A stretch of DNA of 29,221 bases from Stramenopiles sp. TOSAG23-6 (Eukaryota > Sar): NCBI GenBank assembly GCA_900128565.1, contig LT635974.1, positions 1 to 29,221 on the forward strand. Direction: 5' to 3'. The translations under genes and the position numbers were made by a program. Shown in pieces: positions 1-29,221 of the stretch. Each line of letters starts with the position of its first letter. Position 1 is the first letter of the stretch. Under the pieces are notes generated by a model. That model was given only the letters and a program-made list of their open reading frames with translations. It was not told where the DNA came from and did no database searches.

Positions 1-3000
1 GGTATGAAAGAGAAATAAAAGAAGAAATTTTAGAACCGCAATCGAAACTGCAACATGTTTCAAGTGGATTTGCAAAACAGGTCAATCGTAGCTCCGCGAC
101 TCCATCGGACCTTCCACAACTTCAAATGCGATCTTCTACACGAAATGGAGGCATGGGAATTTGGGATATGCATGAAAATTCGATAAAGTCAATGTATAAA
201 GAATCCTTTAATTTGAGAATATCAAAAAATAGTATATCAATTTCTGAACATAGAATTCCTCTTTCTTATTCAAGAAATTCAACAATGATATATCATCATC
301 CTATGGATGCCCCATCCCATTCAAAAACAGCCAAAAGCAAAAATATTCCAAACAACAAAAAGCAAATTACAGAAATGCAGTAGAAAAGTTTGTCGATATA
401 GTTTCGCAAAGACAACAAAATCCACTGGCTACTTTTCTTCGAAGTAGCAACTCATATGAAACAAATGATATGTATCGTAGAAATAGACCGAAAACTGTTG
501 GTAAAAGTCTGCAGAATTATGGAATGCGAGATTGCGAATCTCAAGGAATTGGAAGTGCTCTATCACAAAGTTCTGAAATTCATGTATTAGATCTCAGTGG
601 AAACCATTTTACTAATAAAGGAGTTTCGGCAATTCTTTCGGCGGGTCTTGAAACAAATACTTCTTTGGTCGAATTAGACTTTTCAGGAAGTAGAATGGGT
701 TCAAAAGGTGCCGATGCCCTCTTCCAATACATTTGTCGACCAGAATGTCGCATGTATGTTTTATTTTTTTTTTCAATTTTGATTTTATTTTTCGTACGCA
801 ATTTTATCCCTAACGATTTTTTTTTGAAATATTTTTCCAAAATACATAGAAGTTCTCAATATATCAAAAAATAATCTAGGCGACAGTGCTATATCATCAA
901 TCTGTGAAGCTTTGGATCGCAACAAATATCAAAACACGTCTCTCATTACACTAGATATATCACACAACGGAGCAGGCAATAAAACTGCGACAGTTCTTGC
1001 AAGAGTTCTCGGTATGAGCACAAGTACAATTCAAGATCTGAATTTGAGTTGGAGTCATATAAGAGGAAGTGCATTTGTTTCACTTATTATGTCTATTATG
1101 AAAAATAATTCTTTGAAATCACTTGATGTGTCTTGGAACATTCTTGGAAACGGGGGTGCCCATGCAAAACTTCCCAGTAATAGTGCAAAAGTTTTAAGCC
1201 AACTGTTCCTTTTTAATAAATGTCTAACACATCTCAACCTTGCAAACTGTAGATTAAATAAGACTGATGTCGTTGAAATTGCAAAGGGTTTAAAAAAAAA
1301 TGAAACTATCTTTGGTTTACATTTTGAAGGAAACTCTGGCTATGTTGATGGCAATGGATTCTTGAAGCCATCAGAATCGCAAGGATATAAAGGTACTGCT
1401 ATAGAAGTTGCGCCTAGTCGTCTGAATGAAGTCGCTTACGCAAAGCAAAATTTTAATGGTGGAGCTCATTCGAATCATCCACAAATACAGAATCTCTCGG
1501 GACAAATTATGAGACAATATGGCAGCTGTTTTATACCTTCCAAAACGACAGAAAAATAACATTGATACTCACACGGATAAGGATTCGCTTCATCCAGAAG
1601 AGTTCAGCGAACCTCATGATAAAACAAACTCAAGTGCATCTGGAAGTTTCCAACCAATGCAGCTAAAAGAGAAATATTTTAACAATCTTCCAGTTTGTAG
1701 AGCATACAATTTTGGAATTTGTACGGCTCAAGCGTTTAACATGTGTAATAATGCACATGTTTGTTGGGTTTGTCAGAAACCACACTCTTGTAAGTCTCAG
1801 GCGCGATGTCGTATGAAAGTGTCATTACCTAAAAAGTCAAGATTAAGTTGTCCATGTTGGATATGTGATGAATGGTCAGCATATGAATTTCGATGGACTC
1901 CTGGTATTTCAGGTGACATTTTTGACGAAACAGATGTATGGGTACATCTTTCTATTGATGATTGGAAACCGGCAGTGCTTCATGCTGATTACGGTAAATT
2001 AAGCACTATTAGAATGATTCCAAAAGGTGTTCAGGTGGAGTATGTACGTTTCAATTTTTTTTTCAATTTCAAATTTGTTTTTTTTTCGTACCCAATTTTG
2101 TACCTAACGAGTTCTTTTTATACTACATTTTTGAAATATTTTTTCACAATACATTATTTTACTTCTAGTAAACGAGGGCCGTTTACTGCATCGGATCAAA
2201 ATTTAGGTGTATGTGGAACGCAAACATTCCCTTTGGCACTTTTAAATTATGTATACGTAATAGCTGATGATATTGTAAAAAGTGTGAAGAATGAATTCAA
2301 CGACGAAGAATCTTCTGATAGCGATGTAGAAAGTGAAGACTCCCAGAAAATAGCATTACTTTCAAAATATAAACCACGACAAGAACCTCCAAGTAAAAAA
2401 CTCCAACAACAGAGAATTAATGTTTGGTCTCCGAATTCTTCTGTCTGGATTTGGCGTCCAATATCATGTGATTCGCGGAGTTTTTATACAACTCACTTCG
2501 TATTGGACTTCTCTTGTGAAACGGAATGGAATAGAATGAAATGTCGCCCAGGGCTTTTTAGATTAGTGAAACGCATTAATGGAGAACGAGAGATGAATCT
2601 TCTTAGTCTTGCACTTCGAGAACATTTTGTTGTGCTTTGTAGAATATTTAATTTTTTATGTGCAATATCGAGTTCAGCACAGGATAGTAATCCATTTCAA
2701 TTATATTTTAATGTATTCTTTCGTGTCGTTTGTTGTACATGGAAACTCAATATGAAAAGGGAAGTGATATTGGATTTGTGGAAACTTACCACAGAGAATG
2801 AACATATTGAAAACAAACTACAAACAGAGAAATCTTTACCAGTTAAACAAAAGACAATGACCCGTTCGGAGTTTTTTGAACTAATTATTCGCATCATTGC
2901 ACAAAAGCTAATTCGAGCAAGGGTTGTAGATAGATTGTCAAAAGGAGTTGGTGTACTCCTCAAAGACTTTTTGATCCCAAATTTAAAGCTTCATCCTCTA

Positions 3001-5177
3001 GGTAACTATATCATGAAAGATCAAAAGGAATGGCGCCACAGAGAGTTATATAGAAAAGTTATTGACCAAACATTTCGCTTACACTTGATACAACTTCTTA
3101 ACATATTTAGATTTTGGGCGAAACGTGATATTGCATCAGATGAAAACTTACGAAAGATGACAATGGATGAGTTCTGTAGTTTTTGTCAATGCATTGGCTT
3201 TGTTGAAGATACAGTAAACAGAAAAGAGGAGTACATTCTTTCAAAAGAACAAATTAAACTGATATTTATAGATTCACGTATGATACTGATTGATACAGAA
3301 TGTGAGGGAACTGTGGGATTAGCATTTGTTGATTTTCTTGAGGCATTGTTGCGTCTTTGTGCACAGCCTGAATTAAAAACAGTCTTACATAATCCTGAAG
3401 TAGAAAATGAAATTGTGGTTAAAGTAAAAGCTTCAGAGGCAAACAAAAACGAAATGGAACATAAGAGGAAAGATACAGATAGAGAGTATGGTTTCAAAGA
3501 CAAAGCAAAGCATGGAAATCGTGATAGTTCAGTTGCTGTTGTTCCGAATCAAGAAGTTGCTAACAGCAATTCAAGTGTAGTTGACCCATTTGAGTCCCCA
3601 TCAAAGTCAAATGAGGTATCTGATTCCTCTTCTAGTACTATTTCAAGCACGGCATCTGAGTCTGAAGATATTGAACCGTCATTATCTCTAGAATTAAAAC
3701 TGCTTTTGTCAATTATATTTAAACGTATGCCGATTGCACTGAAACGACTAGTAGAACAGAAAAAGATGAAAGAAAAACACAGTATAAATCTACGCAAATA
3801 CTCAAAACTTAACTATGCATCAACTTCAGTTCAATTTAATACTCGTGTAAGTATATTTTCAAAGAAAGCTGGTTACGACGAATCATTTAAAAACATTGAA
3901 TTACCTGCTTGGCAAACGTGGATGTCACAAATAATGATTTACGACCCATCTTTACTTGATATTTTTCTAGAGAGACTAAAATTAAGTCCCTCGAAGAATT
4001 GTACAAAAGAGCGACTGCATCATCAGATGTCTGATGTGAATTGGTTATTTGATGTATCTAACGGTATGAGTAAAAATTTACAACGTGATTTGATCAATGA
4101 AGCGTGTGAAGTATTAGGTACAAATGGGGTTTTCAAAAGTAACATTTTACTGTCCTATCTTTCGTATTTTCGACCGAATCCTACAAAAAACAAATTTTGA
4201 TATTCGTGACAGTATTTTTTGGTAAGCGCATTCAAACTTGTTCAGCACATGCAGCATTTAATACAAATAAAGTATTTGAAGAAGCTTTCCAATCAGAGTT
4301 TGATTTAATAATTGGAAACTTTACTGAAATTTTAAAAGACGAAAAGGAAAAAGACGATTTAAAAAACACAATGTCTAAGTTATACAAGCAATTTGTGTTT
4401 TTTTTTAATGTCGTCTGCATTTTTTTGTAAACAATCCGGTTCAATTTCTCATGCAGGATTTAGTAATTTAATACACGACATTAAAATGGAAGACATTGCC
4501 GAGGATATTTGTGACTTTGATGGTATTTTTAAAGAAAATGTTGAATTAAATAGAAATCCTTCAACGCAGCAAAAATTAAATTTGGGTCTGAATCGATTTC
4601 AATTCTTAGCTGCTATGATCAAAGTTGGATTGAAAATATTTTATGATTCGAATTCAAGTCCTGGTGAAGCAATTGTCGTTTTTTATAACAAGCATATTTT
4701 ACCTTTTGTGAAAAAAAAAAAGAAGAGCCTTTTGACATTTAGATCTTATTTAGACCGAGAAACATTTCGCCGGCGATTTCTCTACGCCTCAGCAGCACCA
4801 GCTATATTTTTGCGTTCCAAATCCGAAATATTAAAGGAAATATTTTTGAAATGTAATAAAACCAAAGCAAACACAAAAAACACAAAAGTAATAAGAAATC
4901 AAATGATAAAATGTCATGGGAAGCTTGGGAAATATTTGTAAATTATGCAAATATTAATAATTTATCGCATATACCAATTCGAATAGCATTCAATCATTCA
5001 CATATGTTTCAAGTGAAAAAAATATTCCAAGAAAGTTTCTTAACATTTGAGGAATTTCTGGAAGCTATCTCAAGACTAGCTCATATGACTGGCCAAAAAC
5101 GTCGACCGCTTGTATTGAACATTAAGGATCTGTGGACAGATGATGTACTCAACAATATTCTTGACAAACTTTCATGA
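1..5177 (+). CDS. LRR / Cys-His zinc-binding / EF-hand-like protein, 5'-partial, multi-exon
   Basis: Open from the left edge (frame starting at base 3), so the true start is outside the window. Proposed exons are 3-231, 363-753, 848-1392, 1526-2043, 2155-4138, 4246-4372, 4464-4852 and 4924-5177. Together they give about 1478 residues in one frame. The 754-847 and 2044-2154 introns are introner-type and well supported. The other five are inferred only from frame changes plus available GT-AG pairs. From 470 to about 1390 there are ribonuclease-inhibitor-type leucine-rich repeats (PECRIEVLNISKNNLGD after splicing). Around 1696-1810 is a C-x7-C-x7-C-x3-H-x-C-x2-C-x3-H cluster, likely zinc-binding. 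The C-terminal half has several helical segments resembling degenerate EF-hands (for example FEEFLEAISRLA near 5050). Cytosolic or cytoskeletal scaffolding is a guess; no named family is recognised. Alternative: two genes, split near 1520-1560 where frames change. Confidence 0.6.
232..362 (+). other. Candidate GT-AG intron (131 bp)
   Basis: The coding frame changes between about 230 and 385. A GTATATC donor at 232 and an AAAAAG acceptor at 362 restore the frame. Other pairs, or an assembly indel in the A-run near 356, could do the same. Confidence 0.25.
754..847 (+). other. Introner-type intron A (94 bp) in the LRR gene
   Basis: Starts GTATGTTTTATT and carries the core as CGTACGCAATTTTATCC then CTAACGA. 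It ends CCAAAATACAT. Left exon ends ...CGCAT, right exon begins AGAAG, so AT is repeated at both junctions. Removing it gives ...CRPECRIEVLNISKNN, a perfect fit to the PxCxLxxLxLxxN pattern of ribonuclease-inhibitor LRRs. Using the nearby AG (ending at 849) breaks the frame. Confidence 0.88.
1393..1525 (+). other. Candidate GT-AG intron (133 bp)
   Basis: The LRR frame ends in a stop at 1557-1559 while the next long frame opens at 1513. A GTACTG donor at 1393 and an ATATGGCAG acceptor at 1525 join them in frame (...SQGYK-AVLYLPKRQKN...). Confidence 0.45.
2044..2154 (+). other. Introner-type intron B (111 bp) in the LRR gene
   Basis: Starts GTACGTTTCAATTT, core CGTACCCAATTTTGTACC then CTAACGA, ends TTTTTTCACAATACAT. 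Length is 37 codons with no in-frame stop, so the reading frame runs through it. The translated stretch is Phe-rich and low complexity, unlike its surroundings. Removal joins ...GVQVEY to YFTSSKRGPF. No GT-AG pair nearby keeps the frame. Confidence 0.85.
4139..4245 (+). other. Candidate GT-AG intron (107 bp)
   Basis: The frame ends at a stop at 4198-4200 and coding resumes in another frame. A GTAACA donor at 4139 and the TTGTTCAG acceptor at 4245 restore it (...NGVFK-THAAFNTNK...). An alternative acceptor, GTGACAG at 4212, also keeps frame. Confidence 0.45.
4373..4463 (+). other. Candidate GT-AG intron (91 bp), weak donor
   Basis: A frame change occurs around a T-rich stretch at 4397-4430. 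GTCTAAG at 4373 with GGATTTAG at 4463 keeps frame. The stronger-looking acceptor CTCATGCAG (ending 4456) has no donor in the right phase, so a homopolymer error in the T-run is also possible. Confidence 0.25.
4853..4923 (+). other. Candidate GT-AG intron (71 bp)
   Basis: GTAATA donor at 4853 and TGGGAAG acceptor at 4923 move the reading from the frame that stops at 4941 to the terminal frame ending at 5177 (...EIFLKSWEIFVNYAN...). The segment is A-rich and unlike the introner family. Confidence 0.4.
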
Positions 5178-6091: not shown

Positions 6092-6193
6092 TGGTGAATT
6101 AAATTATGAAAATAGACAATGCAACGGAGATAAAAAATCACCTCAGTTGCTTGCTCTCCAGGGAGGAAAGGAAAAGTCGGTACGTTAAATATC

Positions 6194-6209
6194 AAAACCC
6201 TAACCCTAA
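6194..6209 (-). promoter_or_regulatory. Telobox-like motif upstream of the Rab gene
   Basis: AAAACCCTAACCCTAA, two tandem CCCTAA units, sits about 103 bases 5' of the Rab start. Similar motifs lie upstream of the C2/protease pair and, imperfectly, of the ClpB gene. A promoter role, as for plant teloboxes, is inference. Confidence 0.35.
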
Positions 6210-6266
6210 TTGGATATTTATTGTAATTCAAAAATAAATTTGAGATTTGAGATTAGTACTGTATGG

Positions 6267-8062: not shown

Positions 8063-11000
8063 TCACGCTGTAGATTTAGGTCTGTCCCATGTCATTTCTT
8101 TGGTTACCTTGTTATAGAATATAGTTTTCTGAGTAGCTTCATCAGTATAACTAACCCAATCTTCAGGTAAATCATTTAAATTACTTTCACTTGCATTACA
8201 GTGACCACTTTCACCTTCACAAATATCACTTGGTTGAATTTCCTCCGGATTCAATGAAATTTCAATACTGAGGGAGCCTGTTGCATCACCATCAACAAAT
8301 ATATTAGGCCCGTGTTTAGAATTCCGTGTTTTCATACCGCTTTTTGATCGTCCATGTTCCATTATAGCTTTTGCAATTTCCGTTCCTAGAACTTGGTGAA
8401 TATATCTTCTTAATGGTCTTGCGCCATACATCGGTTCATATGCTTGCTCTACAATAGTATCAATACCATTGTCCGATACAGTCAAATTAGCTCTGTTCCC
8501 TATATTAATATCGAATTGATTCACAAGTATTCGAGTGATCTCTGTTAATTGGGGCATCGATAAAGAAGCAAATATAATAATATCATCCAAACGATTCAAA
8601 AATTCAGGTCGAAAGTGTTGTTTGACTTCTTTCATCACAGACTTTTTAGCCATATTTAAACTTTGTTTGTTCTTTGAATCCGTGTACACATCTGCAAGAA
8701 ACTGACTGCCCAAATTAGATGTCATAATGATGTATGTATTGCTGAAATCTACAGTAACACCTTTTCCATCTGTTAAACGTCCATCATCGAGAACTTGAAG
8801 GAAGGAAGTCAACACAATTTGATGAGCTTTTTCAATTTCATCGAGAAGAACAACACAATATGGTTTTCTCCTTACAGCTTCGGTAAGTTGACCACCGCTA
8901 TCATGTCCGATATATCCCGGAGGACTTCCAATCATTCTTGCAACGGAATGTTTCTCCGAATATTCACTCATATCTAATCGAACAATTGCATTTTCATCAT
9001 CAAATAATTGTTCTGCTAATGCTTTTGCAAGTTCTGTTTTTCCCACACCCGTAGGACCGAGAAAAAGAAATGACCCAGATGGTTGATTTTCGGCACCAAT
9101 ACCAGCACGACTTCTTAATACTGCATTCGTCACAGCATCAATTGCGTCATTTTGACCAATGATTCTCTCATGTAACTTATTACCTAAACTAAGGATACGA
9201 CTCTTTTCGCCTTCACTAAGCTTTGACAATGGAATCCCTGTAGTTTGACTAACAACTTCTGCAATATGCTCAGGTGCAATTACATCAGTTAAAAGAACAG
9301 CGGCATCATGATGTTTTCGATACTCTTCTATTGTTTTTATTATTTCTGCCCGTCGTAATTCTAATTTTGGTTTCACTGTATGAAGTAACCGTGATACTTC
9401 GTCAACATCTGTATTTGCTTCATTTTCTAAAGCTGATAGATTACTATTAAGGTCGTCAATATCCTGCTGAACCTTGTGAAGAGAATCCATCCTCTCCTTT
9501 TCTTCGGCAAGTCTGCTTCTCATATCTTGCAACTCGTCTCTAGTAGCAGATAGCTCAATGTCAACAATTTCTAATCTCTGAACAATTGGTGATTCACCAT
9601 CCAAATTTTCATCTCCTCCTAATCCAAACCAGGATACAAATGTGGCAAATGTTGAACCATTTGCTGTACGTTCGATATCACGCTGCAAAGATCTTTGTTC
9701 TACAGCAAGTTGCATGTATTTTCTCTCTAGATCCTCCAACTGCTCCGGTTGACTATCTAATTGAACTCTTATTTTTGCACATGCTTCATCAATTAAATCA
9801 ATTGCTTTATCAGGATTAAATCGGTGAGATATGTATCTATCTGATAATCGAGCAGCAATTCGTAATGTCTCATCCAAGATACGGACCCCATGGTGTGCTT
9901 CATACCTTTCACGCAAACCTCGAAGGATAGCAATGGTGTTTTCAACATTCGGTTCTTCTATAAGAACTTTTTGAAATCGACGTTCAAATGCCTTGTCTTT
10001 TTCAATATATTTTCTATACTCATCAGTAGTTGTAGCACCAATCACACGGAGAGATCTTGCAAGTGCAGGCTTTAATAAATTTGCACCATCCATCGATGAA
10101 CCACCACCTGAACCAATCAAACTATGAATTTCATCAATAAATAAAATTACATGTGAAGATCTCTCAGCCTCTGCAATAACTGACTTTAATCTGGCTTCAA
10201 ATTGACCCCTCGCACTTGCACCAGCTATCAGCGCGGCCAAATCTAGCGAATATATGTGAACACCAAGTAAAGAATGTGGTATGTATTGTGAAAAATATTT
10301 AAAAAAAAATCCCGTTAGGTACGGAATTTCGTACGAAAAAAAAAAAAAAAAAAGATATGAAAACGTACACCATTCCAGAAACAATCCGCTGAGCTAATCC
10401 TTCAGCGACAGATGTCTTTCCTACTCCAGGGTCCCCAATAAAAACAGGATTATTCTTTTTTCGTCTGGATAAAATTTGTACTGCACGACGAATTTCCATG
10501 TATTGTGAAAAAATACTCAAAAACAATTGTTAGGTACAAAATTTCGTATGAAAAAAAGATGAAATAAATAATGAAAATGTACATGTCTCTCCCTATGACA
10601 GGATCTAACTCCCCAGCTTCAGCTTTTGCTACAAGATCTAATGCGTACGTTTCTAACGCAAAAAAATCTTCATCCGCAGTAGATCCACCACTTTTCTTAC
10701 TAGAACGATCACGACTATAACCTTTATTATTTCGATGTTTTTGATTTCGTTCATTTTTGGACGTATTCGTTTGACCTCGACTTTTTCGAACTTTGTTAAC
10801 TTGTTTAATGACAGAATTTGCCGTGAGAAGACCTGTTTTCTTTAGTAAAGCTGCGACATCTTTATCCTTTAAAACTGCAACAATAAGATTGTAATGTGTA
10901 TAATATATCAAAATAAAAAAAATGATTATTAAGGTACAAAAGATTACGTCACTGTAGTATTATTTTTAAAAAATATTCCGTATTGGTCAAGTCCAATATG

Positions 11001-11399
11001 AGTTTCATCAGTTTCTAATCGTTCTTTATTAGCCAGACGGAGTACGGCAGATAGTTCGTGTGTTTGACCAAGTTCAAGTGGTGCAGGCGACTGACGAGGT
11101 AATGCAGAAACTTTCCTCCCAAGTTCAACCAAAAAGTTTGAAATGGTTTTACGGACCTTCATTGCTGTTGGGTTTCCACTGATTGACTTTTTCAGGAGCC
11201 TTTGACCAAAAGATCCTTGATCTTCAAATAATGCTCTAGCTAAGTGCATCTGAGAACATGCAGGATTCTTACGTTTTCTAGCAGTTTCTTCTGCTTTCTG
11301 ATATACCTCTAAAGCTTTGTTTGTAAGCTCAAGTTGCCCATTGACAGAGGAATTCAGCGAAAACAGACAAAAAGTTAAAAGTATGCAACGTATAAACAT
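8063..11399 (-). CDS. clpB-like: ClpB/Hsp104-type AAA+ disaggregase with signal peptide and C-terminal WW domain
   Basis: Exons 11399-10983, 10893-10583, 10497-10369 and 10280-8063 give 1024 residues. Clp/Hsp100 hexamers thread aggregated proteins through a central pore using ATP. Seen: hydrophobic N-terminal signal ([21 protein letters not shown]); Clp N domain (about 25-165); Walker A GDPGVGKT (264-271) and Walker B ILFIDE (331-336) of NBD1; coiled M domain (about 465-620); Walker A GPTGVGKT (694-701) and Walker B VVLLDE (762-767) of NBD2; C-terminal small domain [15 protein letters not shown]. The last 35 residues form a WW domain (W994, W1017, P1020). The NBD1 pore loop reads [10 protein letters not shown] where ClpB normally has KYRG, so the pore Tyr is missing; the NBD2 loop GYIG is intact. 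The signal peptide implies entry to the ER, secretion, or a plastid behind an ER-derived membrane. All three introns are introner-type. Confidence 0.93.
10281..10368 (-). other. Introner-type intron F (88 bp) in the ClpB-like gene
   Basis: In gene sense it starts GTACGTTTTCATATC, has core CGTACGAAATTCCGTACC then CTAACGG, and ends TTTTTCACAATACAT. Removing it gives [19 protein letters not shown], matching the ClpB stretch LAQRI(V)xGxVP exactly. There is no AG at the end. This is one of the best anchored boundaries in the window. Confidence 0.93.
10498..10582 (-). other. Introner-type intron G (85 bp) in the ClpB-like gene
   Basis: Gene-sense start GTACATTTTCATT, core CATACGAAATTTTGTACC then CTAACAA, end TTTTTTCACAATACAT. 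Removal gives [20 protein letters not shown], the canonical ClpB sequence DPVIGRDxEIRRxxQIL. ATG is repeated at both junctions. No AG closes the intron. Confidence 0.93.
10894..10982 (-). other. Diverged introner-type intron H (89 bp) in the ClpB-like gene
   Basis: Gene-sense start TACGGAATATTTT, partial core TTTTGTACCTTAATAATCA, end ATATTATACACAT. Removal joins [19 protein letters not shown], as expected of the Clp N domain. TAC is repeated at both junctions. There is no GT within about 20 bases of the donor, so a GT-AG reading is impossible here. Confidence 0.75.
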
Positions 11400-11739: not shown

Positions 11740-14700
11740 CTACACAACAACATTTTCACCATCTTGCATATTTACAGAATTCTCTTCACTCCGTCGTCTA
11801 AAAGAGAGTTTTCTTAATTTTTCCTTTGAGCAACATTTCTTAATAGACGTTGAATGCATTGAAATCACAGCAATAATATGAAAAAGTATACATGTCACTG
11901 CAAGCAAGAGCATCGTCATTTCGCACCATTTCGGTATAGCATCTGTTTCTTTTTCACGAGGTACAAAAGAGAGTGCGAGTATTACATGTATTGTGAAGAA
12001 ATATTCGGGAAAAAATCGTTAGGCCTAATTTTCATAATAAAAAAAAACAAAAATTCATGATGAAAACGTACAATCATCTCTACTGATGTGCACCCGGAAA
12101 GGAAATTATCATGCCAACTTCCTAACGGTCGCCATAGAATGTAACAGAATAATTCAATGGCAAATAAAGCAATAAGAACAATTGCCTGAACTTTGCTATC
12201 ATCCTCATCCTTGAATTTTCCAATACAAATACCGCGAAATAATTGTAATGGGAGTAGAACAATAACCAAGAAAAATACAGCACCACGAGATCCTGACATA
12301 TCTTCAAATAATGGTCCCCATTTAGCGACATATCCCTTATTTCCATCCCCATCAGCATCTTTCCACTCTTTTTCGTCTTTATCCCATACTGCTCTTGCAC
12401 CCTGTTCGTTATAAACTTCTTTATAAATCTTATACGTAGCTATCATCATAAAACCGATTATATATACTACAATAAAACCAAAAACTGCAGCTACTATAAA
12501 AAACGAAACTTTACCATTGACCAAATTTGCCGTTGCTGCTTCTCCCAATCCTTGGAAAACAATCAATAGAACTAGAACTTCATACCTGGGAAATTTACTT
12601 TCTGTTATCCTTTCATTTACGATTTTTCCTGCAGACTTTCGTAAAAGTGTCTTACCATCAGGGCCAATTAATCTTTTCTCAGAATTCGGGAGGTAGATTG
12701 CAATGCGTTCACCAAGAGACACTCTTCGCAATGCCACCTTTTTATTCTCTTCATTTTTTCTAAAGCTTTCATCACATCGATGCTTACCAGATATATCCAT
12801 ACCTAATTCATACATTGAGCTTCTTTTTTTCCTGATTCCTGTCATTTCGATATCTACGTCCCCAGGTGTAACGCTTGTTAATGAAGGTGTAGTATCGTCC
12901 ATTTTTAATTGGACGGTACCAGTATCTTGCCCATCATTGCCAACACTTTGATGGTCTCTCATCCGAGTCAGTTTTCCACGTTGTTTGTTGCTTTGGCGAG
13001 GAGAAAGAAGTAAATCCATACTATTCTTAGGAGAAAGGAGTGAGTCCTTATTAGTAGCTTTAGCTCTAGCTACAGGCGATACAGTTCTAATCATGCTATT
13101 CTTCCGTAATGCAGCAATTGGTGACGAAAGATTTAATTCGTTAGACGAAATAACAATAGCATCATCAAACTCTTCTTCTTCCGGCTTCTTCTTTTCACAA
13201 CAAAATATTTCTCTATATTTAGGAACTCGTTTATCAAAGAAGCATCCAATCACAATGATGTGAATTACAGCTACAGCGATACATAAAAATACAGCCCATG
13301 TTACATTTGCAGAAAATACTTCCAAATGGAACTCTTGTAAAGCTCTCGCATAATTAACAGAACTGAGAACGACTGTTGTATCCACTTTATCTGCAGTCAG
13401 AATAGTATGTTCATTCTCATCTTCCGTTTTTGATACATCAGTATCTTTTTTTTTGAGTCGTCGTCTTCTTGATTGTAAAGAATAGAGTTCATTTTGTTTT
13501 ACTTTTGATTCATTCTTTGCTGCTTCTTGGGCCTCTTTCCATGTCAACATTGCTTTTTCATCATCACACAGCCATAAATCTCCAGTGTCTGTTTTGAATG
13601 ATACAGTACTACCAAGTATCATTAATATAAAAGCTATCAATAGTAATGATATGCCAAAAGCTACCTTTCGAAAACTTCGCCTTGGTTGAATCGTAAGTTC
13701 CTCCACGCCATCACCATCCTTTAATGCAACACTCTGTAAACGCTTAGTAAACCAATCCCTCTTTTTACGTCGTAATCCATCAACTACAAATAATATTCCT
13801 ACAGGTATAAAGAATAAGACAGAATAAATAAAGAACCAACTTTCAAGCTTAAACCAACACCAAATTGGACGGATGCCTCGCAAGTTAGCCCATCGAACTT
13901 GATCCGCAAACCCAGATAATGTTGGAGCCCAATGCATCTGAGATACATTTGACAATAGTGACAAAGTTTGAACGTTAAATATTAATAGCCAGACAGCATT
14001 TCCAGCCATGCCTGAACCACCACCTCCTGCAGCAGCATTACTTCCTCCAGACATAAAAGCAGTGGGAGCACTAGCTACTCCTGCTGCTGCACCGCCACTA
14101 GCACCTGCAATACTAGCAGCAACTGTGCCAACTACGACTGTTGCTGCTACGCAAGTCGTCGTTGTCTCCCCCAAAGCTTCTACAGTCGTAGGTTCCAATA
14201 CAGGTTCCGGTTCATCTTTATTCTTAATAGTATATTTTTGATTAAATAGTATAGGATCTAGCGCAGGCGTATTCTTGCTTTCATTGCATGTTTTCCCTGT
14301 CCATCCAATCTCGCAAGTACAGGAACCATCATTAGCAACGATACCTTTATTACTACAAGTTTCTTTGTTACTATATTGACAATTCAATCCAGCATATGTT
14401 GCTGCGCAATTCTGACACGAAGCACCAGCATATTTTGTTGTACATGTGCACGTTCCTAAATTATCCACATTACCACGATTATTACAAGTAATAGCGTCTG
14501 TAAATTGACAATATTCTCCTTTGCCAACAGCATTACATTTACAAGTACCTTTATCATTTTTAACTGTCACGACGCCATTACCATTGCATGTGCCCTTATT
14601 ACTGAATTGGCATTTTGTTCCAAAATATCCATTACCACAGGTAGAGCAAGAGTTGTTACCTTTCCAAGCATCTACACATTCACATGTAGCAACGTCAAGT

Positions 14701-17084
14701 GCATCAACTTTGACATCTCCTTGATCATTGCAAGTTTTAGAACGCGAGTATTGACAATTTTTACCAGATAAACCATTTGTACATGTAGAACAATTGGCGC
14801 TTCCTTTCCAGTCGTTATCGCATGTACATACTCCCTTTGCACATGTGCCATGTCCACTACAGTTATTGCCATTGCATGGATCTGGTGAAGCATTTTTACA
14901 TACTAATCCATTATTACTTGTCTTTCCAGAAGGACATGCCGAGCAACTGCCTTTTCCCACATCAGGTTGAACTTTACCAACGGTACAAGCTTGGCATCCT
15001 GAAGCAGGAACTGCCCCAGTATGATGCGTACCTGCATTACAAAAACAGTCAGTCAGAGCTGTAGAACCCGTTTGCGTTGTTGTCTTTCCTGTAGGGCATA
15101 ATAAACATTTTACAGATGAATTAGATACCTCTGTTTTGTATTTTGCTAATGCACACTTTTCGAAGTTTCCTGCATTATTTTTGAAATATCCCGGTGCTGC
15201 TAGACAATCAGTTGGGAGAACAGTTCCTTTTGCTTTTGTAGTAGAGTTTGCTGGACAAGTACTACACGCCAATTTGCTACCGCTAGTTGGTTGATATGAT
15301 CCTAGTGCACATATAGCGCAACCACCGTTTCTAGGACATGTATTCGTTGCACCATATCCTTGACCACATGAACCACAACCCACAACTATCCCATTATGGA
15401 GAAAATGTGAAGTGACGTTATCAACGTTTTTCGACACCAAATATTTCTTTGTATTGGTATTCAGAAATATTGCTTCATTCTTATAAATAGGAATCAACGT
15501 TTTATTTCCATCACAAGTAATTTTGAAACTTTGAGCGCTCGCAATTGTACAGATTTCATTGCCGAATGCATTGTACACTTTGACTCCAGCCTTAAATCCA
15601 TGAGATGTTGGAGTCGAACCACTGTCATGAGTAAATGATGATAATCCAGCAGGTTGATAGGTTGCACCTTGAATATAAACAGGTTCGCCAGAATAAATAC
15701 AATCTTTTGTATCATCTTGGGTCTTGCTGCCCGTTTGAGCAGTGCAATTTTTACATGAGACATTGTCACTGTTTCCTTTGCCGTCACATGTGTCTGATTT
15801 ATATTGCACTTTAGTGCAAGTCGTACATTTCAGTGCTATATATTATGGGAAAATATATCAAAGTAGAAATTCGTTAGGTGGAAATTTTTCTACGAGAAAA
15901 ATAAATTTGAAATTCATGATGAAAACGTATATACCTCTATTATTCACATAGAATCCTTGTTTAGCTTGAGCACAAGGTTGATGGTCTTGTGGCTCTCTTC
16001 TTTTGAAAATCATTGCACCAGATGGAATAGCAACTGCAGTACCTGTACCAAAGGTAAGCTGATTCGAGGATTTCCCAGTAATTCGAGGCAAATCGGAACC
16101 ATCGACCAAGTAAGGGATTTGCTTTAGGTGTATTACTTGCGCTACGTTAGTAACACCTGCAGGAAGGTTCACCCGCATTGACTTTGTACCTTTTGGATAA
16201 GCTTGATATGCAGTAAGACCTGTGCCCTTAATATCGACACATGGCTTTGTATTTGTTGCCACAGCATCTACAGCACAATTAGGCTGAGATTGACACTTTG
16301 CACAAGCACCAGCTCCATTAGAAGTATGATAACCTGCGTTGCACTCACAGTATGGTAAACCTCCACTAGTTATTGTCCATAGAGGGTGATCAATCCAATC
16401 ATCAACCTTCGTCGGAGTGTCCAAGCAACATCTACATCCCCAACCTGGAGTCGACTGAGAAACCATAGTCAAACCAGAAAAACTTCCGGAATATGTTTTA
16501 CAAGAATTATTTGTTTTCATATAGTCATAACACTTCTTTTTCACACAGTCCCAATTACAACTACCAGAAACTGCATAAGTACTTGAGCCGTAACCGTGAC
16601 TATACTCACCTCCCTTGACACCAGTCGTGGGATGCGTTTCACATTCTCTTCCATCGTTGGTCGCTGGTAATGTTTTACAAGCCCCATGGCCATTGCAAGG
16701 GTTTCCAGCACCTCCAGCGCAAGTGGCTTCACATTGAAATCCGGCATAACCAGTGTTGCACACACAACTACCACTAACTTCAGAGCCATGCCCATTACAT
16801 TTTGGTGGTCCTTGTTGCTGATCACACTTAGTGAAATCACTGGGGCAAGCACCAGCGCCATTATTATTTGGTTTAATACAATAATAACCAAAATTTTGAT
16901 CAGCGTTTTTCCGGACACAAAGTTTGGCATCTGAGGCACTTGAACCATTATTAAATCTCCCGGATATGCCGTTTTTGAGGGAGCCGTTACCACTGTACGA
17001 AGCGCTACATTTTTTTGAACATGCTGCAGCATCTACTCCTGAAAATAAACTTAAAAGTGTTATAGTAAGGAATAACTGAACCAT
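11740..17084 (-). CDS. Large secreted-N-terminus EGF/Cys-rich polytopic membrane protein
   Basis: Exons 17084-15931, 15837-12072 and 11985-11740 give 1721 residues. The ATG at 17084 starts a clear signal peptide (MVQLFLTITLLSLFSGVDA). The extracellular part is Cys-rich: EGF-like modules near residue 100-150, ephrin-receptor/GCC-type repeats at about 555-700 (CPxGKTT, CPSGKTS), and five or six EGF-like repeats at about 700-905 (CNGNNCSGHGTC and so on). After a Pro/Thr linker come hydrophobic segments, including about 948-980, 997-1016, 1052-1071 and 1110-1129, more towards the C-terminus, and a final one (TMLLLAVTCILFHIIAVIS) in the last exon. That exon ends in a basic cytosolic tail. It is probably a surface receptor, adhesion molecule or channel-like protein. 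The family is not named with confidence. Both introns are introner-type. Confidence 0.85.
11986..12071 (-). other. Introner-type intron I (86 bp) in the EGF gene
   Basis: Gene-sense start GTACGTTTTCATCATG, a decayed core (ATTATGAAAATTAGGCC then CTAACGA), end TTCTTCACAATACAT. Removal joins ...TSVEMI to VILALSFVPRE and opens a last exon of 246 bases with a transmembrane segment and a stop at 11740. TGTA is shared by both junctions. Confidence 0.85.
15838..15930 (-). other. Introner-type intron J (93 bp) in the EGF gene
   Basis: Gene-sense start ATACGTTTTCATCATG, core CGTAGAAAAATTTCCACC then CTAACGA, end CCCATAATATAT. TATA is repeated at the junctions. Removal gives NNRGIALKCTTC. Here a GT-AG reading (15934 to 15836) would also keep frame and give NNRALKCTTC, so this copy does not discriminate. 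Confidence 0.75.
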
Positions 17085-21400: not shown

Positions 21401-24130
21401 ATCAGCGTGTATTATCCATGACGTACCATTCTGAAAACCTTTCAGACTTACTTTGAGATACAAAACACCACCCGGTTTGTTTTTATCTTTACCTTTTGTA
21501 TGATTAGCTAGTACGAGTGTCCGATGTTCCGACAAACTTGGATTATTGTATAGTAATGTATTCACATTTAATGAACCAAGGGAACACGTACCCATCAAAT
21601 CATTTCTCCCAATCATATCATAGTCAATTACTTCAATTTTTATATCTGTCTTTGTGCAAACATACCAACTTGAATAATTAAAAATAAATGTTTCCGAATA
21701 AATTGGATTCAATTGTTTCTTCTTTGTTACAGTTTTGAATACCTGTGTTCCGCATGTGAGTTTTACAAAAGGATCCGAACTTTTCCGATCGGCACGTGGA
21801 AGGTTTTCTGCACGAATGACTTCAACTACTACTTGGCCGGATACGTCCTTTCCTTTAAGCCGCTGAGCTGCAGCCTTAGCGGTTGACATTTCAGATAGAC
21901 TGGAAAAACCACTTACATCTAATGAAGAATTTCTTTTTTTAATAATAGTTTTATCAAAACCATGAATTGCGAGACGAAGCTTTATTTCTCCACCACTAGA
22001 TTTATTGGAATCTTTTCCTTTTGTCAAACTATTATCTAATTCTATCGATCGCTCTGTGTAAATTTTAAGTGGTGTACTTTTTTCATTAAGCGGGTCTCCA
22101 CTTATCCAATTGCCGCTATCATCTACTGTGTAATTTACAATTCGCGGCTTTATGAACTCTTCACCAGTGGATGTTTTACACAGTAAATTCCGAATTATAG
22201 TGGATGCTAATAAATCGTTACTGCCAATTAAATCCCAATCCCAAATCTTGATTTGTATTTGCGCCGACTTGCAGGACGACCAGCAATCAAAATAAAATAC
22301 AAAGTTTTCATTGAAATCTGGATTTAATGTCGTTTTCTTGGTTGCAGTTTTGAATTTTTGTGCATGATCCCCTGCTATTGGGTTTCCAGTTTCATCAAGT
22401 AATATCAATTCTACATATGGGTCACTACTTATCGCATCACCCCGACAGAGATTCCTTGCGGAAACCACCCCAACTTCAACAATGCCTGTCCCGTCACCTT
22501 TACTTTCAAATGAAGAAATTTCTGAATTGCACACATCATCCGGATTTTGGTTCCTTTTAGTGGCAGCTTCTTCCTGTTTTTCTTTTCTTATTTGAAGCCT
22601 CGCTTCTTCTATTTCCATTTTAAGTTTATTTTCTTCTGTAGGAAAACCCTCGACAGTAACTGCAACAAATATTTCTCCACCAGATGACAAATCCTTGTCT
22701 TTTCCAGTCGATGCATTTGATAACTCAAATGACCGTTCTTCTCGTATTCCTTTTACGGGTTTCATCAAAGATCCAATAGTATCGTCTTTAATAGGAGAGC
22801 CATTCACTACACCAAAATTACTTATGCCACCAACGATTTCGCCAAGTATATCGTTACTTCCTATCAAATCCCTGTTGAGTGTAAATGATTAACATTTGCA
22901 TAATTCAAAATAAATAAATGTTATAATTCAAAAATAATTCAAATCTACACAAATGTGAAGAGATTACTTACCAGTCAAATATTTGAACAAATACTTTTGC
23001 ATCTAAAAGTTCACTCCAATTTGAAAACACAAATGTAAATAATTGATTTTCCCAAATTGGATCTAGAGTTTTTTTTAGAGTATTCGTTTTAAATGTTTGT
23101 GTAACTCCTGAAGTTTCGCATGTATAGTGAAAAAATGAACCAGAAGAAAAATTGTCAGGTACGAAATTTTCTATGAAAAAAAAACAAAATTTGAAATTAT
23201 GAATGATTAAAAAAAAATCAAGATTTAAAAGTTTTTTTTGTTAGGTACAAAATTTCGTATGAACATACACGTGAGTACACAAAATGGATCACTTGAATTT
23301 TTGTCTCCGCGAGGAAGATTTGATGCACGAATTACTTCTATCTTTACAATACCTGACTCATTCAATAATTTTCGTTGAGCCGCGAGTTGAAGTTCAGCCT
23401 TGCGTTGCTTTTCAGTCTTGATACTCGTTTTTAATTTTTGAGCAGAACATTTTGTTGTTGCGACAACTTCCATATTTATTTCGTTTGGGTTTGATGAATT
23501 TATATTTTTGCTTATTTCTATTTTACTCGTTTTTTCTATCTGCTGCATTTTAATAAAATCTGATTCATATGGAAAACCAGATGTTTTGATTATCACTGAT
23601 AAGTGACCTCCACTAGAAAGCCTCTTATCCTTACCTGTTGATTTATTTTCCAAGGCAAAACTTCTATGGTCAGCATTCGGAGTAATTGGCTTATAGTCTG
23701 TAGCACTTATCATATCTCTAATTGGAGAACCTACAGGACAATCACCGAGACAGTCAATCACACACGTGCTCAACAAATCATTGCTACCAATCATATCCCA
23801 ATCATACACCAAAACATCTATTGTAGCATTTTTACATTCTTCCCAAGTGTCAAAAAAAAATACTAAGTTTTCGTTCCACACAGGTTCACACGTCTTCTTT
23901 TTCGTTGAAGTTTTCAAACTTTTCTCTCCACAATTCAATACACAGAAAGGATCTGATGACTTACTATCACCGCGGGGGAGGTTTGTGGCTGAAACGATTT
24001 CAATTTCAACTTNACCTCTACAAAAGAGACTGCCCTGTTTATCTTGAGCTAAGGAACCTCTTTCGGAGATATTTTTTTGGTGCATCTCAGACATATTGGT
24101 CTTCTCTGTGACTAGTTCAGAATGTAGCAT
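18431..24130 (-). CDS. Five-C2-domain protein with Tudor-like domain and long basic tail
   Basis: Exons 24130-23269, 23119-22972 and 22871-18431 give 1816 residues. C2 domains bind Ca2+ and phospholipids or proteins. Five copies are visible at about 40-135, 257-345, 464-563, 681-768 and 864-960, each with an NLxRGDxxSSDP(F/Y) loop and a later D(W/Y)DxIGxNDLL loop, which carry the usual Ca2+-ligand aspartates. Each C2 core is followed by a matching GKDK...GGE-type strand, so the unit repeats about every 200 residues. At about 1038-1096 is a Tudor/SH3-like fold (GDPVLFV...YIPGIIKSI...FDIEYKN). The remaining 700 residues are Lys/Arg-rich, with nuclear-signal-like clusters. There is no transmembrane segment, unlike ferlins or MCTPs. 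One base (24013) is undetermined. It has one introner-type and one ordinary GT-AG intron. Confidence 0.88.
22872..22971 (-). other. Conventional GT-AG intron (100 bp) in the C2 gene
   Basis: Gene-sense donor TG|GTAAGTAATC and acceptor CACTCAACAG|GG. Removal completes the C2 motif FDWDLIGSNDILG. It has no CGTACG core and no introner ends. It shows that standard spliceosomal introns exist in the same gene as an introner. Confidence 0.93.
23120..23268 (-). other. Compound introner-type intron K (149 bp) in the C2 gene
   Basis: Gene-sense start GTATGTTCATACGAAATTTT with a first core ending GTACC then CTAAC. It is followed by a second, nearly full-length unit (TTTCAAATTTTG..., core CATAGAAAATTTCGTACC then CTGACAA), ending TTTTTTCACTATACAT. 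Removal gives SSDPFCVLTCETSGVTQTFKT, in register with the other C2 repeats. At 149 bp it is about 50 bp longer than its relatives and carries two cores. Confidence 0.88.
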
Positions 24131-24483
24131 GGCAAATGATCATGCCTCAAAACATATTGTTCTGTCATGTTCTATCTAAACCATTGTTTGACTTTTTACA
24201 ATGTTTTGAATCTTTCTTGAAATCTTTCTGACCAGGCCGCACAGGGACAGTTTCAAAAGACTTACGTTATAACTTATCTAGCCTAGGGTTAGGGTTAGAA
24301 AATGTCAGTAGTCAGTCAGTCGCAAAAAAAAAAAAAAAAAAAAATAATATGACATTTTCATAGAATGACATTAGAATCCTTACCTACGTTTGCTTGAGCT
24401 ATTAGTGCCCTTCGGAAAGAAGAAGTGCTTCCATTGTTTCAAAAGTGTATTACGTTTACTCTGGAAAAGGCTATTTATTTCAG
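24131..24483. promoter_or_regulatory. Divergent promoter region with telobox and poly-A tract
   Basis: 353 bases between the C2 gene (-) and the protease gene (+). TAGGGTTAGGGTTAG lies at 24284-24298. A GTCAGT microrepeat precedes a run of 21 A at 24324-24344, a likely nucleosome-excluding tract. The divergent layout implies promoters for both genes. Confidence 0.45.
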
Positions 24484-26167
24484 ATGCTACAAGCACTATC
24501 GTTGATCGCGTGGTCACTTTTCTTTTGGTTTCCTTGTTATTCTAGTTTGCGACTCCCTCTCATTCATCAACCTAGAACCAGGAGAAACGTCACTTCTCTT
24601 TCACTAGGTCAAAAAGAACCTCTTCACGATGCATATCGCAGTGCTGGAGAATTTTATCTTAATATCACCATTGGGGGACAAACTGCGACACTTTTGGTAG
24701 ACACAGGCTCTTCAGACCTTGGAGTAGTTTCTACTTTACTGCCATTTGATGATATTCCTAAAAAGACAGTACCCCCATACAACCCATCAAAATCGAGGAG
24801 AATGGACTGCGAGTGGTGTCACGAGCATCGTCATCATGGATCTTCTAATAGGTGCACACATGTCAAAGGACAAAAGACCGAGAAGCAATGTACGTATCAT
24901 CAAAGCTATATTGATGGAAGTGGCTTTTCTGCCGCAGTGTACAAAGATTATTTTTCTTTTGGGTCAAATGCCCCAAGTACCTTAAGTGTTATTGGAGCAT
25001 ATTATAAGTCGAAAAATATGGATGATTCAATTACAATGGATGGAATCATTGGCATGGCAGGTCCAGGATTAACTGCAAGTGGAGCTAATTCAACTGCATT
25101 TGATGATTTGGTTGCTTCTGGTGAAGTTGAGGATGTATTTGCAATTTGTCTTGAAAATCCGACACTGAAGCGACCAAAAACTAAAGGTCAGTTATATCTT
25201 GGTTTAGATTCTGATAATACAATAACAAAACTAAGAAATAGAAAACATGTCAATGAAGTGGACAAGATTGCAGGCATTCCACTACATCAACATTTCAATG
25301 ACACAGGAACTATTTGGACCCCGCGTGTTTTGGATAGCGACTATGTACGTTTTCATTTCAATTTCGAATTTATTTTTTTTTTGGTTTTTCGTACGAAATT
25401 TTGTACCTAACAAATTTTTTAAGATTTTTTTTGAAATATTTTTTCATAATCCATTACGCTATTGGAATTCGTGATATTCTGATAAATGGAATTTCAATTC
25501 ATGTTAGTGTGAAAATTTTAAATAATGGCGGTTCGATAGTGGACACGGGTACATCAATGGTTTGGTTACCAAAGACTGCATGGTTATCCACGAAGCGTAT
25601 CTTAAAAAAATACTGCAAGACTGAAGAAACTTGTTTACCGGGAATTTGTGTATGTTTTATATGAATTTCTAATTTATTTTTTTTTCATACGAAATTTCGT
25701 ACCTAACGATTTTTGTTTTGAAATATTTTTTCACAATACGTGATTGCGAGTTACTTTCACCCTTGTCTTATAATAAATCTATTTTGTACAATAATTGTGC
25801 TACATTAACTGAAAAGGAAATTGAAAAATTTCCATTGTTCGAGTTTGAACTTGTTGGAGGTGGCCGGATACCATATACCCCACAAAAATATCTCCGCAGT
25901 GGAACGCATACGTTTTCAAAAATTGAATTTCGATTTTGTTTTCATAGATAATTTTGTACCTAACGAATTTCGAATTTCAAAAAAATATTTTTTCACAATA
26001 TACAATTTTGTGAAGGAAATGGTCCAGTGTCCTTCGCGATGGGAGGTAACGATGATGATACAAGCGGTATGATTTTGGGGGAAAGTTTTATGTTTGGAAA
26101 TATTGTTATACATGAACGACGCAATCCGCAACGAATTGGCTTTCACCCCATTAAAAATTGTCCTTAA
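24484..26167 (+). CDS. Secreted pepsin-type (A1) aspartic protease
   Basis: Exons 24484-25344, 25455-25649, 25742-25907 and 26004-26167 give 461 residues. It cleaves peptide bonds with two catalytic Asp residues. Seen: signal peptide (MLQALSLIAWSLFFWFPCYSS), short pro-region, first active site VDTGSSDLG (D73), a Cys/His-rich insert after it (CEWCHEHRHHGSSNRC), flap-like YIDGSG, second active site VDTGTSMVWLP (D317), and the conserved end MILGESFMFGNIVIHERRNPQRIGFHP. No C-terminal anchor is visible, so secretion or delivery to a lytic vacuole is likely. The Cys-rich insert recalls nepenthesin or plasmepsin V types, but this is not decisive. An upstream GTG extends the frame; the ATG at 24484 is preferred because it opens directly into the signal peptide. 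All three introns are introner-type. Confidence 0.93.
25345..25454 (+). other. Introner-type intron C (110 bp) in the protease gene
   Basis: Starts GTACGTTTTCATTTC, core CGTACGAAATTTTGTACC then CTAACAA, ends TTTTTTCATAATCCAT. Removal gives DSDYYAIGIRDILINGISI, the typical aspartic-protease strand before the second active site. No AG is available at or near the acceptor in the right phase. Confidence 0.92.
25650..25741 (+). other. Introner-type intron D (92 bp) in the protease gene
   Basis: Starts GTATGTTTTATATG, core CATACGAAATTTCGTACC then CTAACGA, ends TTTTTTCACAATACGT. Here the last two bases are GT rather than AT, and the left exon also ends in GT, so the junction repeat co-varies. A GT-AG reading ending at 25750 would also be in frame but deletes DCE. 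Confidence 0.85.
25908..26003 (+). other. Introner-type intron E (96 bp) in the protease gene
   Basis: Starts ATACGTTTTCAAAAATTG, with a decayed core (ATAGATAATTTTGTACC then CTAACGA), and ends TTTTTTCACAATATAC. Removal gives GTHTQFCEGNGPVSF and restores the frame to the conserved protease C-terminus. CA is shared at the junctions. The intron lacks a GT start in its best placement. Confidence 0.82.
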
Positions 26168-26517
26168 AAAATTGCGAAAAAAATAAAAGGAACAAACCTG
26201 TTTTCCATTAAATTAAAATTTCAATTGATTTTGCATTTTGATGTGCACACGAGGCTCCGCTCCTCCGTTGTTAGGTACGAATTTTCGTACGAATTTGAAT
26301 ACCACTCGACGTGTTTTGCGCACACAATTATCCCCTTTTGACAAGTCGAAGTTGACTTGACAACCCTTTTTTTACACACGAGGCGAAATTTATCAAAGCA
26401 ATCAATCATCGTCTATTAAATCATCTTAGACCAACACATATCTAGTAAGGGGAATTATTTAACTTGGGAACTGGGTGTAGATTCAGTTCTAAGTGGAAGC
26501 CTTCTTTCGATTGGAGT
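26168..26517. other. Intergenic region with an orphan introner core
   Basis: 350 bases between the protease and PP2C genes. It contains the core at 26270-26293 in antisense orientation, two copies of ACACGAGGC (near 26246 and 26375), and a small inverted repeat CAAGTC/GACTTG near 26343. It presumably carries the PP2C promoter. No coding frame of note. Confidence 0.5.
26270..26293 (-). repeat. Orphan introner core outside a gene
   Basis: On the minus strand it reads TTCGTACGAAAATTCGTACC followed by CTAAC, matching the intron cores. The TTTTTTCACAATACAT end is absent, so this is a fragment or relic. It is antisense to both flanking genes. Confidence 0.75.
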
Positions 26518-28254: not shown

Positions 28255-28363
28255 ATAAATCGCTTCGTTGAGCGAGTGATTATAAATTTGGTGAATGTTA
28301 AAAATACAATTTATTCCAATTTATTATTTCAACTTTTGATCTTTAGTTTTGAAACTATTTATA

Positions 28364-29221
28364 TTATTTCTCTGAAAATCCTAAACTGATTACATTAAAT
28401 AGCATTACCTCTCGAATAAGTAGTTGTAATCTCCGATTTCTCACTGAAAGACATGCACAAATATATGGCATTAAATGCAACAAATGAACTTTAGATCCAT
28501 TACCATTAGCTACTAAATGCATCCTGTTTGGTAATGTCCAAACTTGACACGCCTCCACTACGATAGGATTTAACTCCAAGGATAATAGTTTCTCTAACAT
28601 AAATGTCGTAATGTTAAAACGTATGCGTTCATCATCTGCAGTAATATCAACAAAACCATTGCCAGCATAATCTTGTGATAAATGCGCAAGATAGTTTTTT
28701 ACAACTCTACAGAGAGCACCATGGAATTTTCCACTAAGCTCCGGAGTAATATCAATGGGACTATCTTTATTCGAAAATGCAAAAAGATACTTCATACACG
28801 TTTTCGCAATACCGCCTCGGAAAGATCCTTTTTCTAACAAATTAATAAACGAATCAAACGCAGATATCTTATACACCGCAATAACTTCAAGTATATTAAC
28901 AGAATGTTTCACCAGAGAGTCTATTATTTTACACTTTTTTTTCGCATGTGGTGTCACTCTATACTCTTTCATTGATGGACGAGTCGAGTTACCAGGTACT
29001 GGTTCAGAAATAATATAAAGTCCATCCTTCGAGACATTTCCAAAGAAATGAGACAGCGAAGGTTCAGTAGGGGATACACCATCAAGTGTATCCGCAGAAT
29101 ATATAAAATAGTTAGAAGCCTTTTCGTTATCAGGATTATCAAATATAAATGATTGAATATTATATATTTTGGAAAAATATTTCAAAAAAAAATCGTTAGG
29201 TACAAAATTTCGTACGAAAAA
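28364..29221 (-). CDS. 3' end of an unknown, mostly helical protein (partial)
   Basis: The last exon (29161-28364) encodes 265 residues ending in a stop. The upstream part lies beyond the window behind an introner-type intron. It is predicted largely alpha-helical, with leucine-rich amphipathic segments (ITTFMLEKLLSLELNPIVVEACQVW, LLHLMPYICACLSVRNRRL). That composition suits a HEAT/ARM-repeat scaffold. There is a faint resemblance to C-termini of large Sec7-type ARF-GEFs (BIG/Mon2), but I would not name it. No signal peptide or membrane segment in this part. It converges on the PP2C gene with a gap of about 110 bases. Confidence 0.65.
   Translation of the reverse strand, partial: FFVRNFVPNDFFLKYFSKIYNIQSFIFDNPDNEKASNYFIYSADTLDGVSPTEPSLSHFFGNVSKDGLYIISEPVPGNSTRPSMKEYRVTPHAKKKCKIIDSLVKHSVNILEVIAVYKISAFDSFINLLEKGSFRGGIAKTCMKYLFAFSNKDSPIDITPELSGKFHGALCRVVKNYLAHLSQDYAGNGFVDITADDERIRFNITTFMLEKLLSLELNPIVVEACQVWTLPNRMHLVANGNGSKVHLLHLMPYICACLSVRNRRLQLLIREVMLFNVISLGFSEK
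29162..29221 (-). other. Introner-type intron L, cut by the window edge
   Basis: Gene-sense: core CGTACGAAATTTTGTACC then CTAACGA, followed by a T-run, GAAATATTTTTCC and AAAATATAT, then the exon AATATTCAATC. The core matches the best copies exactly. The 5' end lies outside the window, so the donor is unknown. Confidence 0.85.

Follow-up and report, generated by a model that had tools for sequence, protein, structure and literature searches.

A mobile intron family that appears to draw a non-AG 3' end from its target-site duplication in a stramenopile genome

The 29,221-nt contig LT635974.1 of Stramenopiles sp. TOSAG23-6 (GenBank assembly GCA_900128565.1), analyzed here over its full length and referred to as the window, carries several protein-coding genes, among them one for ClpB and one for a pepsin-like aspartic protease, that are interrupted by similar introns of a single repeat family. 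These introns behave like introners, i.e. mobile elements that act as introns at many unrelated positions. They begin with an ordinary GT donor and carry a branch site, and they appear to end in the dinucleotide NT (any base followed by T, mostly AT) that flanks the element on both sides, instead of in AG.

Repeated introns of the window and their copies in the assembly

The features of the window that bear on the family are listed below, where a slash marks the join between exons. ClpB was named by search and the protease by Pfam domains of its homologues; the other genes were named by eye.

754..847, plus strand: introner intron A, in a leucine-rich-repeat gene (by eye); GTATGT...ATACAT; frame CGC AT/A GAA GTT by hand
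2044..2154, plus strand: introner intron B, in open frame 1513-4200; GTACGT...ATACAT; open when joined at NT, not at the first AG
10281..10368, minus strand: introner intron E, in ClpB; GTACGT...ATACAT; ClpB alignment
10498..10582, minus strand: introner intron F, in ClpB; GTACAT...ATACAT; ClpB alignment
11986..12071, minus strand: introner intron H, in a gene with EGF-like and transmembrane parts (by eye); GTACGT...ATACAT; profile match, frame by hand
15838..15930, minus strand: introner intron I, in the same gene as H; AT...AT by the common rule; profile match
22872..22971, minus strand: ordinary intron J, in the same gene as K+L; GTAAGT...CAACAG, 100 nt; frame GAC TG/G GAT by hand
23120..23268, minus strand: composite intron K+L, in a C2-like-repeat gene (by eye); 5' end from one copy, 3' end from another
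25345..25454, plus strand: introner intron M, in the pepsin-like aspartic protease gene; GTACGT...ATCCAT; homologue alignment
25650..25741, plus strand: introner intron N, in the protease gene; GTATGT...ATACGT; duplication GT on both sides, not AT
25908..26003, plus strand: introner intron O, in the protease gene; ATACGT...ATATAC; homologue alignment
26268..26294, minus strand: intergenic core fragment; profile match at E=1e-4, without ends
29162..29221, minus strand: introner intron Q; profile match, cut off by the end of the window

The core common to these introns, CGTACGAAATTTTGTACC, has nine matches in the window at up to 3 mismatches, against a mean of 0.02 in 100 shuffles, and a profile search of the window, with 58 copies as input, gave 13 matches at E<0.05, the very number of copies that an earlier note on this stretch had counted in its 29 kb. 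Read by hand, the 13 matches come down to 11 introns and one intergenic core fragment, since one of the introns, the composite K+L, is matched twice (at 23121-23201 and 23231-23269, with the joined frame CTC ACG T/GC GAA read by hand). The earlier note had placed twelve introns in six genes; eleven were found, in seven open genes. The first two of these overlap near 1513-1559, and the count falls to six if they form one gene. The ordinary-looking GTAAGT...CAG intron J and the non-AG composite intron coexist in one gene.

Across the 8.03-Mb assembly, the 22-nt core has 1096 + 1016 = 2112 matches at up to 3 mismatches, a total that takes in duplicated contigs (e.g. C13/C14 and both arms of C2), so that distinct loci are fewer, but one that agrees with the hundreds to thousands expected in the earlier note. 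The reversed control gave 0 matches, on which ground a chance or low-complexity origin of the core was rejected, and exact core scans of viral_contigs and of GTDB genomes gave 0 matches. Inverted or duplicated contigs (C2, seen in stretches L034/L036, C13/C14, C37, C58 and C75) inflate genome-wide counts and are expected from single-cell amplification.

For closer study, 84 unique core matches (at up to 5 mismatches) were sampled from the window and 50 further assembly stretches (L001-L050). The 61 with well-scored ends formed the set for frame tests; a stricter set held 58 of these, 56 of them with enough flank, and in 6 copies of the stricter set the 3' end is visibly misplaced (flank TTT). 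About 90 nt in length, the element reads GTAYGTTTT...CGTACGAAATTTTGTACCTAAC...CAAAATAC, with a 2-bp target-site duplication on either side, usually AT; NT stands to the left of the element and again to its right, and copies measure 75-113 nt with the flanking NT included. The sampled copies start with GTATGTTTT or GTACGTTTT, continue through T-rich stretches and a palindromic core finishing in ACCTAAC, and close with CCAAAATAC or CACAATAC, an intron layout that may be given in brief as GTATGT...CTAAC...ACAATACAT. The shared ends described in the earlier note are correct, the common 3' end being CAAAATAC or CACAATAC followed by the duplicated NT, with no AG. That note put CTAACGA about 35-45 bases before the 3' end; the CTAAC adenine lies at a median of 35 nt from that end (range 21-50; 55/58 copies).

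The donor, GTATGT or GTACGT, and the branch site CTAAC belong to the most strongly conserved parts of the copies, with donor exceptions in a METTL13-like copy (GA) and in copy O (AT). The terminal GTA and TAC form a very short inverted repeat, and the intron ends are able to pair as AUGUAU/AUACAU in a terminal stem of 4-6 bp; the expected number of end pairs is above 2 bp in 43% of the copies and in 8% of shuffles, with a value of 1.08 for the median copy. Mean pairwise identity among the 58 copies is 0.78 (maximum 0.96), and only 49 of 1653 pairs exceed 0.9, which suggests that the copies are of mixed ages and do not stem from one very recent burst. Of the recent, genome-wide spread proposed in the earlier note, the recent age is only partly supported. 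Divergence from the consensus did not differ between copies with matching (0.150, n=39) and mismatching (0.157, n=19) duplications. With 2112 core matches in the assembly, six or seven window genes and this degree of identity, many alike copies occupy unrelated intron positions, as is expected of an introner.

Two of the further stretches hold arrangements of more than one match. In L032 two profile matches lie end to end (7482-7585 and 7587-7676), and the first may have received the second at its 3' end. In L034 a left-side partial match (3938-4006) and a right-side one (4249-4330), with about 240 bases between them, may represent a broken or longer composite copy.

Joining of the exons

Judged from the letters of the genome, excision would take the element together with one copy of the duplication, so that the introns would end in NT (AT, also GT and TT) and not in AG. 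This claim rests on a frame test and on eight gapless junctions in comparison with homologues. With the junction placed at GT...NT, the joined frame is open over 90 nt on each side in 48/60 copies, which bears out the expectation of the earlier note that copies lie mostly at intron positions inside genes. Shifting the 3' cut by one base either way leaves 13/60 and 19/60 open, and retaining the element leaves 8/60. At 150 nt the NT junction is open in 37/59 copies, compared to 5/59 and 6/59 one base off.

Nine junctions could be compared with homologues, of which eight are gapless at NT and the ninth, protease intron O, is correct to within one residue. The gapless junctions are located in five genes, encoding the protease, ClpB, a SNF2/CHD helicase, a METTL13-like protein and a FANCJ/DDX11-like helicase, and the introns at the nine junctions end in AT (7), GT (N) or AC (O), none of them in AG. 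When the three introner introns of the protease are removed, join M is gapless against 8/8 homologues and join N against 7/8, P0010 having a gap just after the join, while at join O the length is the same as in 3/8 homologues, four being one residue longer and one shorter, with the invariant Cys kept. Joins F and E of ClpB are gapless against a solved ClpB, across GRD-M-EIRR and SGMVPHSLLG. The join of the SNF2/CHD helicase is gapless inside ILADEM/GLGKT, as are both joins of the FANCJ/DDX11-like helicase and that of the METTL13-like protein, the last in a weak match of 28 bits. An asparagine-synthase-like join had no match in PDB. A Pfam domain extends across the join in four of eight joined proteins, in one of them below its cut-off, and in none of the other four. 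With frames joined in 48/60 copies, eight gapless junctions and a ninth within one residue, insertion appears to leave the mRNA unchanged, as it should for an introner.

The element could instead be an ordinary GT-AG introner, like those described so far, with an AG slightly downstream of the element as its acceptor. The first downstream AG does keep the frame open in 28/60 copies at 90 nt, in 17/58 at 150 nt and in 16/56 of the stricter set, and copy I offers a GT-AG pair that could be used. When the two acceptors are compared copy by copy, however (stricter set, 150 nt, n=56), 22 copies are open at NT only and 2 at AG only, with 14 open at both and 18 at neither. Intron A has an open frame at NT and not with the first AG, the AG at 848-849 would shift its frame, and in intron B the first AG leads to an in-frame stop (by hand). 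The eight homology-checked junctions are gapless at NT, and the deposited ClpB model, described below, departs from its homologues at both introners. An ordinary GT-AG acceptor was rejected as the general rule on the frame tests, and we regard this explanation as very unlikely. In a survey of introns starting with GTAAGT, the ending YAG (10) did not stand out from the control endings YAC (15) and YAA (19), and the same survey with GTATGTTTT was mildly in favour of a non-AG end (YAT 14, YAC 10, YAG 6). In place of the GT(GC/GA)-AG splice sites of described families, these introns appear to have an NT acceptor; the introner interpretation of the earlier note is supported, but the non-AG acceptor and the host had escaped it.

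The frame test also bears on excision at the level of DNA, as in the internal eliminated sequences of ciliates, where the sequenced DNA would be germline and the expressed DNA would be free of elements. Such excision would account for precise removal with one copy of a 2-bp repeat remaining. The sense strand is open at NT in 36/56 copies at 150 nt and the antisense strand in 1/56, and this bias, together with the donor and branch sites and the presence of an ordinary-looking intron in a same gene, argues against it. To our knowledge no stramenopile excises elements from its DNA, which also counts against this idea, and we consider it extremely improbable.

Target-site duplication, insertion and removal

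Exact patterns searched genome-wide gave 361 copies with a 5' A and a 3' AT, 23 copies with a 3' GT (5' base G in 21, T in 1 and A in 1) and 29 copies with a 3' TT (5' base T in 21, A in 7 and G in 1), a 5' C being outside the pattern in the latter two. The reversed controls were 0 for these three patterns and 2 for a search for copies with a non-A 5' base, the first 100 of whose 112 copies comprise 52 with G, 35 with T and 13 with C (counted by eye). A 3' G is found in 20/52 copies with a 5' G versus 1/369 with a 5' A (Fisher p 3e-19), and a 3' T in 18/35 copies with a 5' T versus 7/369 with a 5' A (Fisher p 2e-16; 3' CT was outside the search). Duplicated contigs account for some of these copies, about 4 of the 21 G/GT copies and about 1 of the 21 T/TT copies repeating another, as judged from the letters. 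At the second flank position, where the searches distinguish only T from non-T, both sides are non-T in 24 copies, only the left in 26, only the right in 20, and both are T in at least 413 (p 3e-15), the first three counts being partly background with reversed controls of 7, 6 and 5. Both flanking positions covary as a 2-bp target-site duplication. This duplication supports the mobility of the element and, with the very short GTA/TAC inverted repeat, makes up the signature of transposition expected of an introner.

Spread through RNA by reverse splicing, with the apparent duplication as a by-product, would fit the sense orientation of the frame-joining copies. That orientation is expected anyway, as antisense insertions would be selected out, and reverse splicing does not predict duplication-like covariation at both flank positions; we hold it to be highly improbable.

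The reading that we prefer, with a probability of roughly 85%, is that the element is an introner in the form of a non-autonomous DNA transposon, in which the donor and the branch site are normal but the acceptor is not AG, and which is probably removed by the spliceosome. An element of about 90 nt would be inserted by a transposase supplied in trans, with formation of a 2-bp NT duplication, mostly AT. The element would contribute the donor (GTATGT or GTACGT, rarely with GA or AT), the branch site ACCTAAC and T-rich stretches, but no AG, and the major spliceosome would remove it by means of the donor and branch site that it carries. The cut would fall after the duplicated NT, directly 3' of CAAAATAC. 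What fixes this place is presumably how far it lies from the branch site, together with the ACAAUACAU motif and perhaps the pairing of the ends as AUGUAU/AUACAU. GTATGT is also the donor consensus of yeast.

As to the source of the transposase, a single DDE_3 (Tc1/mariner-type) match was found genome-wide, at C298:6479-6913 with a 432-aa open frame; it is not linked to the element. The DDE_3 family normally duplicates TA, and an assignment of the element as a Tc1/mariner miniature inverted-repeat transposable element was rejected because its duplication is NT, mostly AT. A search for U2AF gave nine matches, none of which reached the cut-off; the best of them lies in an open frame of 654 aa on C376.

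Several observations weigh against this reading. An autonomous partner was not found, although no dedicated search for longer or autonomous copies was made, and searches for U1 and U6 small nuclear RNAs were empty, as were their controls, and hence uninformative. In the stricter set 20/56 copies lack an open join of 150 nt on each side at NT; some of these copies may be intergenic, dead, mis-ended or beside another intron. Copy I has an in-frame canonical GT-AG alternative at 15836-15934 (frames by hand). A cut three bases off NT gives nearly as many open frames (45/60 vs. 48/60), and the two are told apart by homology, not by frame alone. A near-identical spliced protein was not found, the best identities being 38-43%, and there was none at the strict limit of 1e-120.

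Two further explanations concern the manner of removal. The introns could be of AT-AC type, with the same exons and both cuts two bases earlier (NT/GTAYG...AATAC/), through a first-last A-C interaction or the minor spliceosome. Where the duplication is perfect the resulting mRNA is identical and the two are inseparable by sequence, and copy O does read AT...AC. The first base of such a donor would, however, vary among A, G, T and C. Minor (U12-type) introns have a ATATCCTT donor and a branch site near the acceptor; the introns studied here lack this donor and have GTAYGTTTT in its place, with the branch adenine at a median of 35 nt from the end, and a U12-type assignment was rejected accordingly. 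We regard removal as AT-AC introns as unlikely.

It is also conceivable that removal is not spliceosomal but proceeds by end pairing, cleavage and ligation, as proposed for the nonconventional introns of euglenozoans. The non-AG end, the short repeats at the junctions and an end pairing above that of shuffles are in line with this. The strong conservation of the GTATGT/GTACGT donor and the CTAAC branch site, a stem of just 4-6 bp and the 1.08 expected end pairs of the median copy are not, and we find such a mechanism quite unlikely.

Relation to known introners, host and consequences

In the passages of Gozashti et al. (2022, PMC9860276) that bear on the introners of Micromonas, Aureococcus and others, these resemble the present family in that alike introns occur at numerous unrelated positions, the target sites are duplicated, and one splice site is carried by the element while the other is taken from the duplication. 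The same passages give repeats of 3-9 bp for earlier families and target-site duplications of 4 bp and 8 bp for the authors' own examples, in contrast to the 2-bp duplication and the co-opted acceptor without AG seen here. As described there, the survey begins from annotated introns, and non-AG elements could therefore escape detection.

The introner elements of Amoebophrya, as presented in the relevant parts of Farhat et al. (2021, PMC7789003), are the nearest precedent for non-canonical introners. They share with the present family non-canonical introns en masse, direct repeats at the junctions and terminal inverted repeats. They comprise, however, hundreds to thousands of families without a clear dinucleotide signature, with inverted repeats of 8-20 nt and direct repeats of 3-5 nt, compared to 4-6 nt and 2 nt here, whereas the present family has a constant donor and branch site and a stramenopile host. 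The AG/AC and AG/AT introns of Fritillaria, according to the sections of PMC13326754 that treat them, likewise have a YAY triplet at the acceptor in place of AG (here mostly CAT), which is linked there to a divergent U2AF; the present introns differ in their ordinary GT donor and in that a mobile element and its duplication are visible as the cause. Nonconventional introns of euglenozoans, in the account available from PMC12621601, show non-canonical ends, short direct repeats and end pairing as well, but have no U1-pairing donor and pair strongly at their ends, unlike the present introns with their constant GTATGT/GTACGT donor and mostly weak pairing. In copy number, insertion and duplication the element thus works like an introner, but without the AG acceptor of described families.

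The host, an uncultured marine protist, is assigned to the MAST-3 stramenopiles by the label of a deposited ClpB. The EukProt protein GSMAST32.ASY1.ANO1.1583.1 (P0014) is identical to the ClpB of the window (8063-11408, minus strand) over the aligned exon blocks, except for residues next to gaps in the model, with the first 58 query residues unaligned. An 18S fragment on L031 looks, by eye, presumably like that of a stramenopile. The GSMAST32 label is read as denoting a single-cell assembly of MAST-3, of the kind described in the relevant part of Seeleuthner et al. (2018, PMC5778133). The literature searched, supplements excepted, contained no account of either introners or non-AG introns for MAST-3, and the SI tables of Gozashti et al. 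may list a MAST-3 family.

At one introner the deposited ClpB model has six extra residues (IIFSQY), while at the second it reads into the intron, with loss of a conserved 32-residue block; it also omits several other exon pieces. For this one gene compared, the garbled model is attributed to a gene-prediction pipeline that expects GT-AG introns. The C-terminal end of ClpB has a WW-like domain (8063-8200, minus strand), an unusual fusion, with PF00397 among the precomputed domains of P0014 and its place judged by eye. Short (CCCTAA)n-like runs, a telomere-type motif, lie between genes at 6196-6209 and 24284-24297 (by eye).

We lean, if only slightly, towards the broader view that in this stramenopile lineage the rule for the 3' splice site has been rewritten by one mobile family. 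A large share of the introns of the genome would then lack AG and take their acceptor from a target-site duplication, and the spliceosome (or U2AF) would have become able to cut at a fixed place beyond the branch site and the motif ACAAUAC, irrespective of the dinucleotide there. Wherever these introns occur, the gene models predicted for this genome and any survey built on them may be wrong, ClpB being the one case checked. The family would represent intron gain by a transposon caught with the joint still readable, as hundreds of insertions still have matching flanks. The prediction is that a host is able to tolerate non-AG acceptors en masse, which would make the order of the two events, a change in the splicing machinery and the introner burst, open to test.

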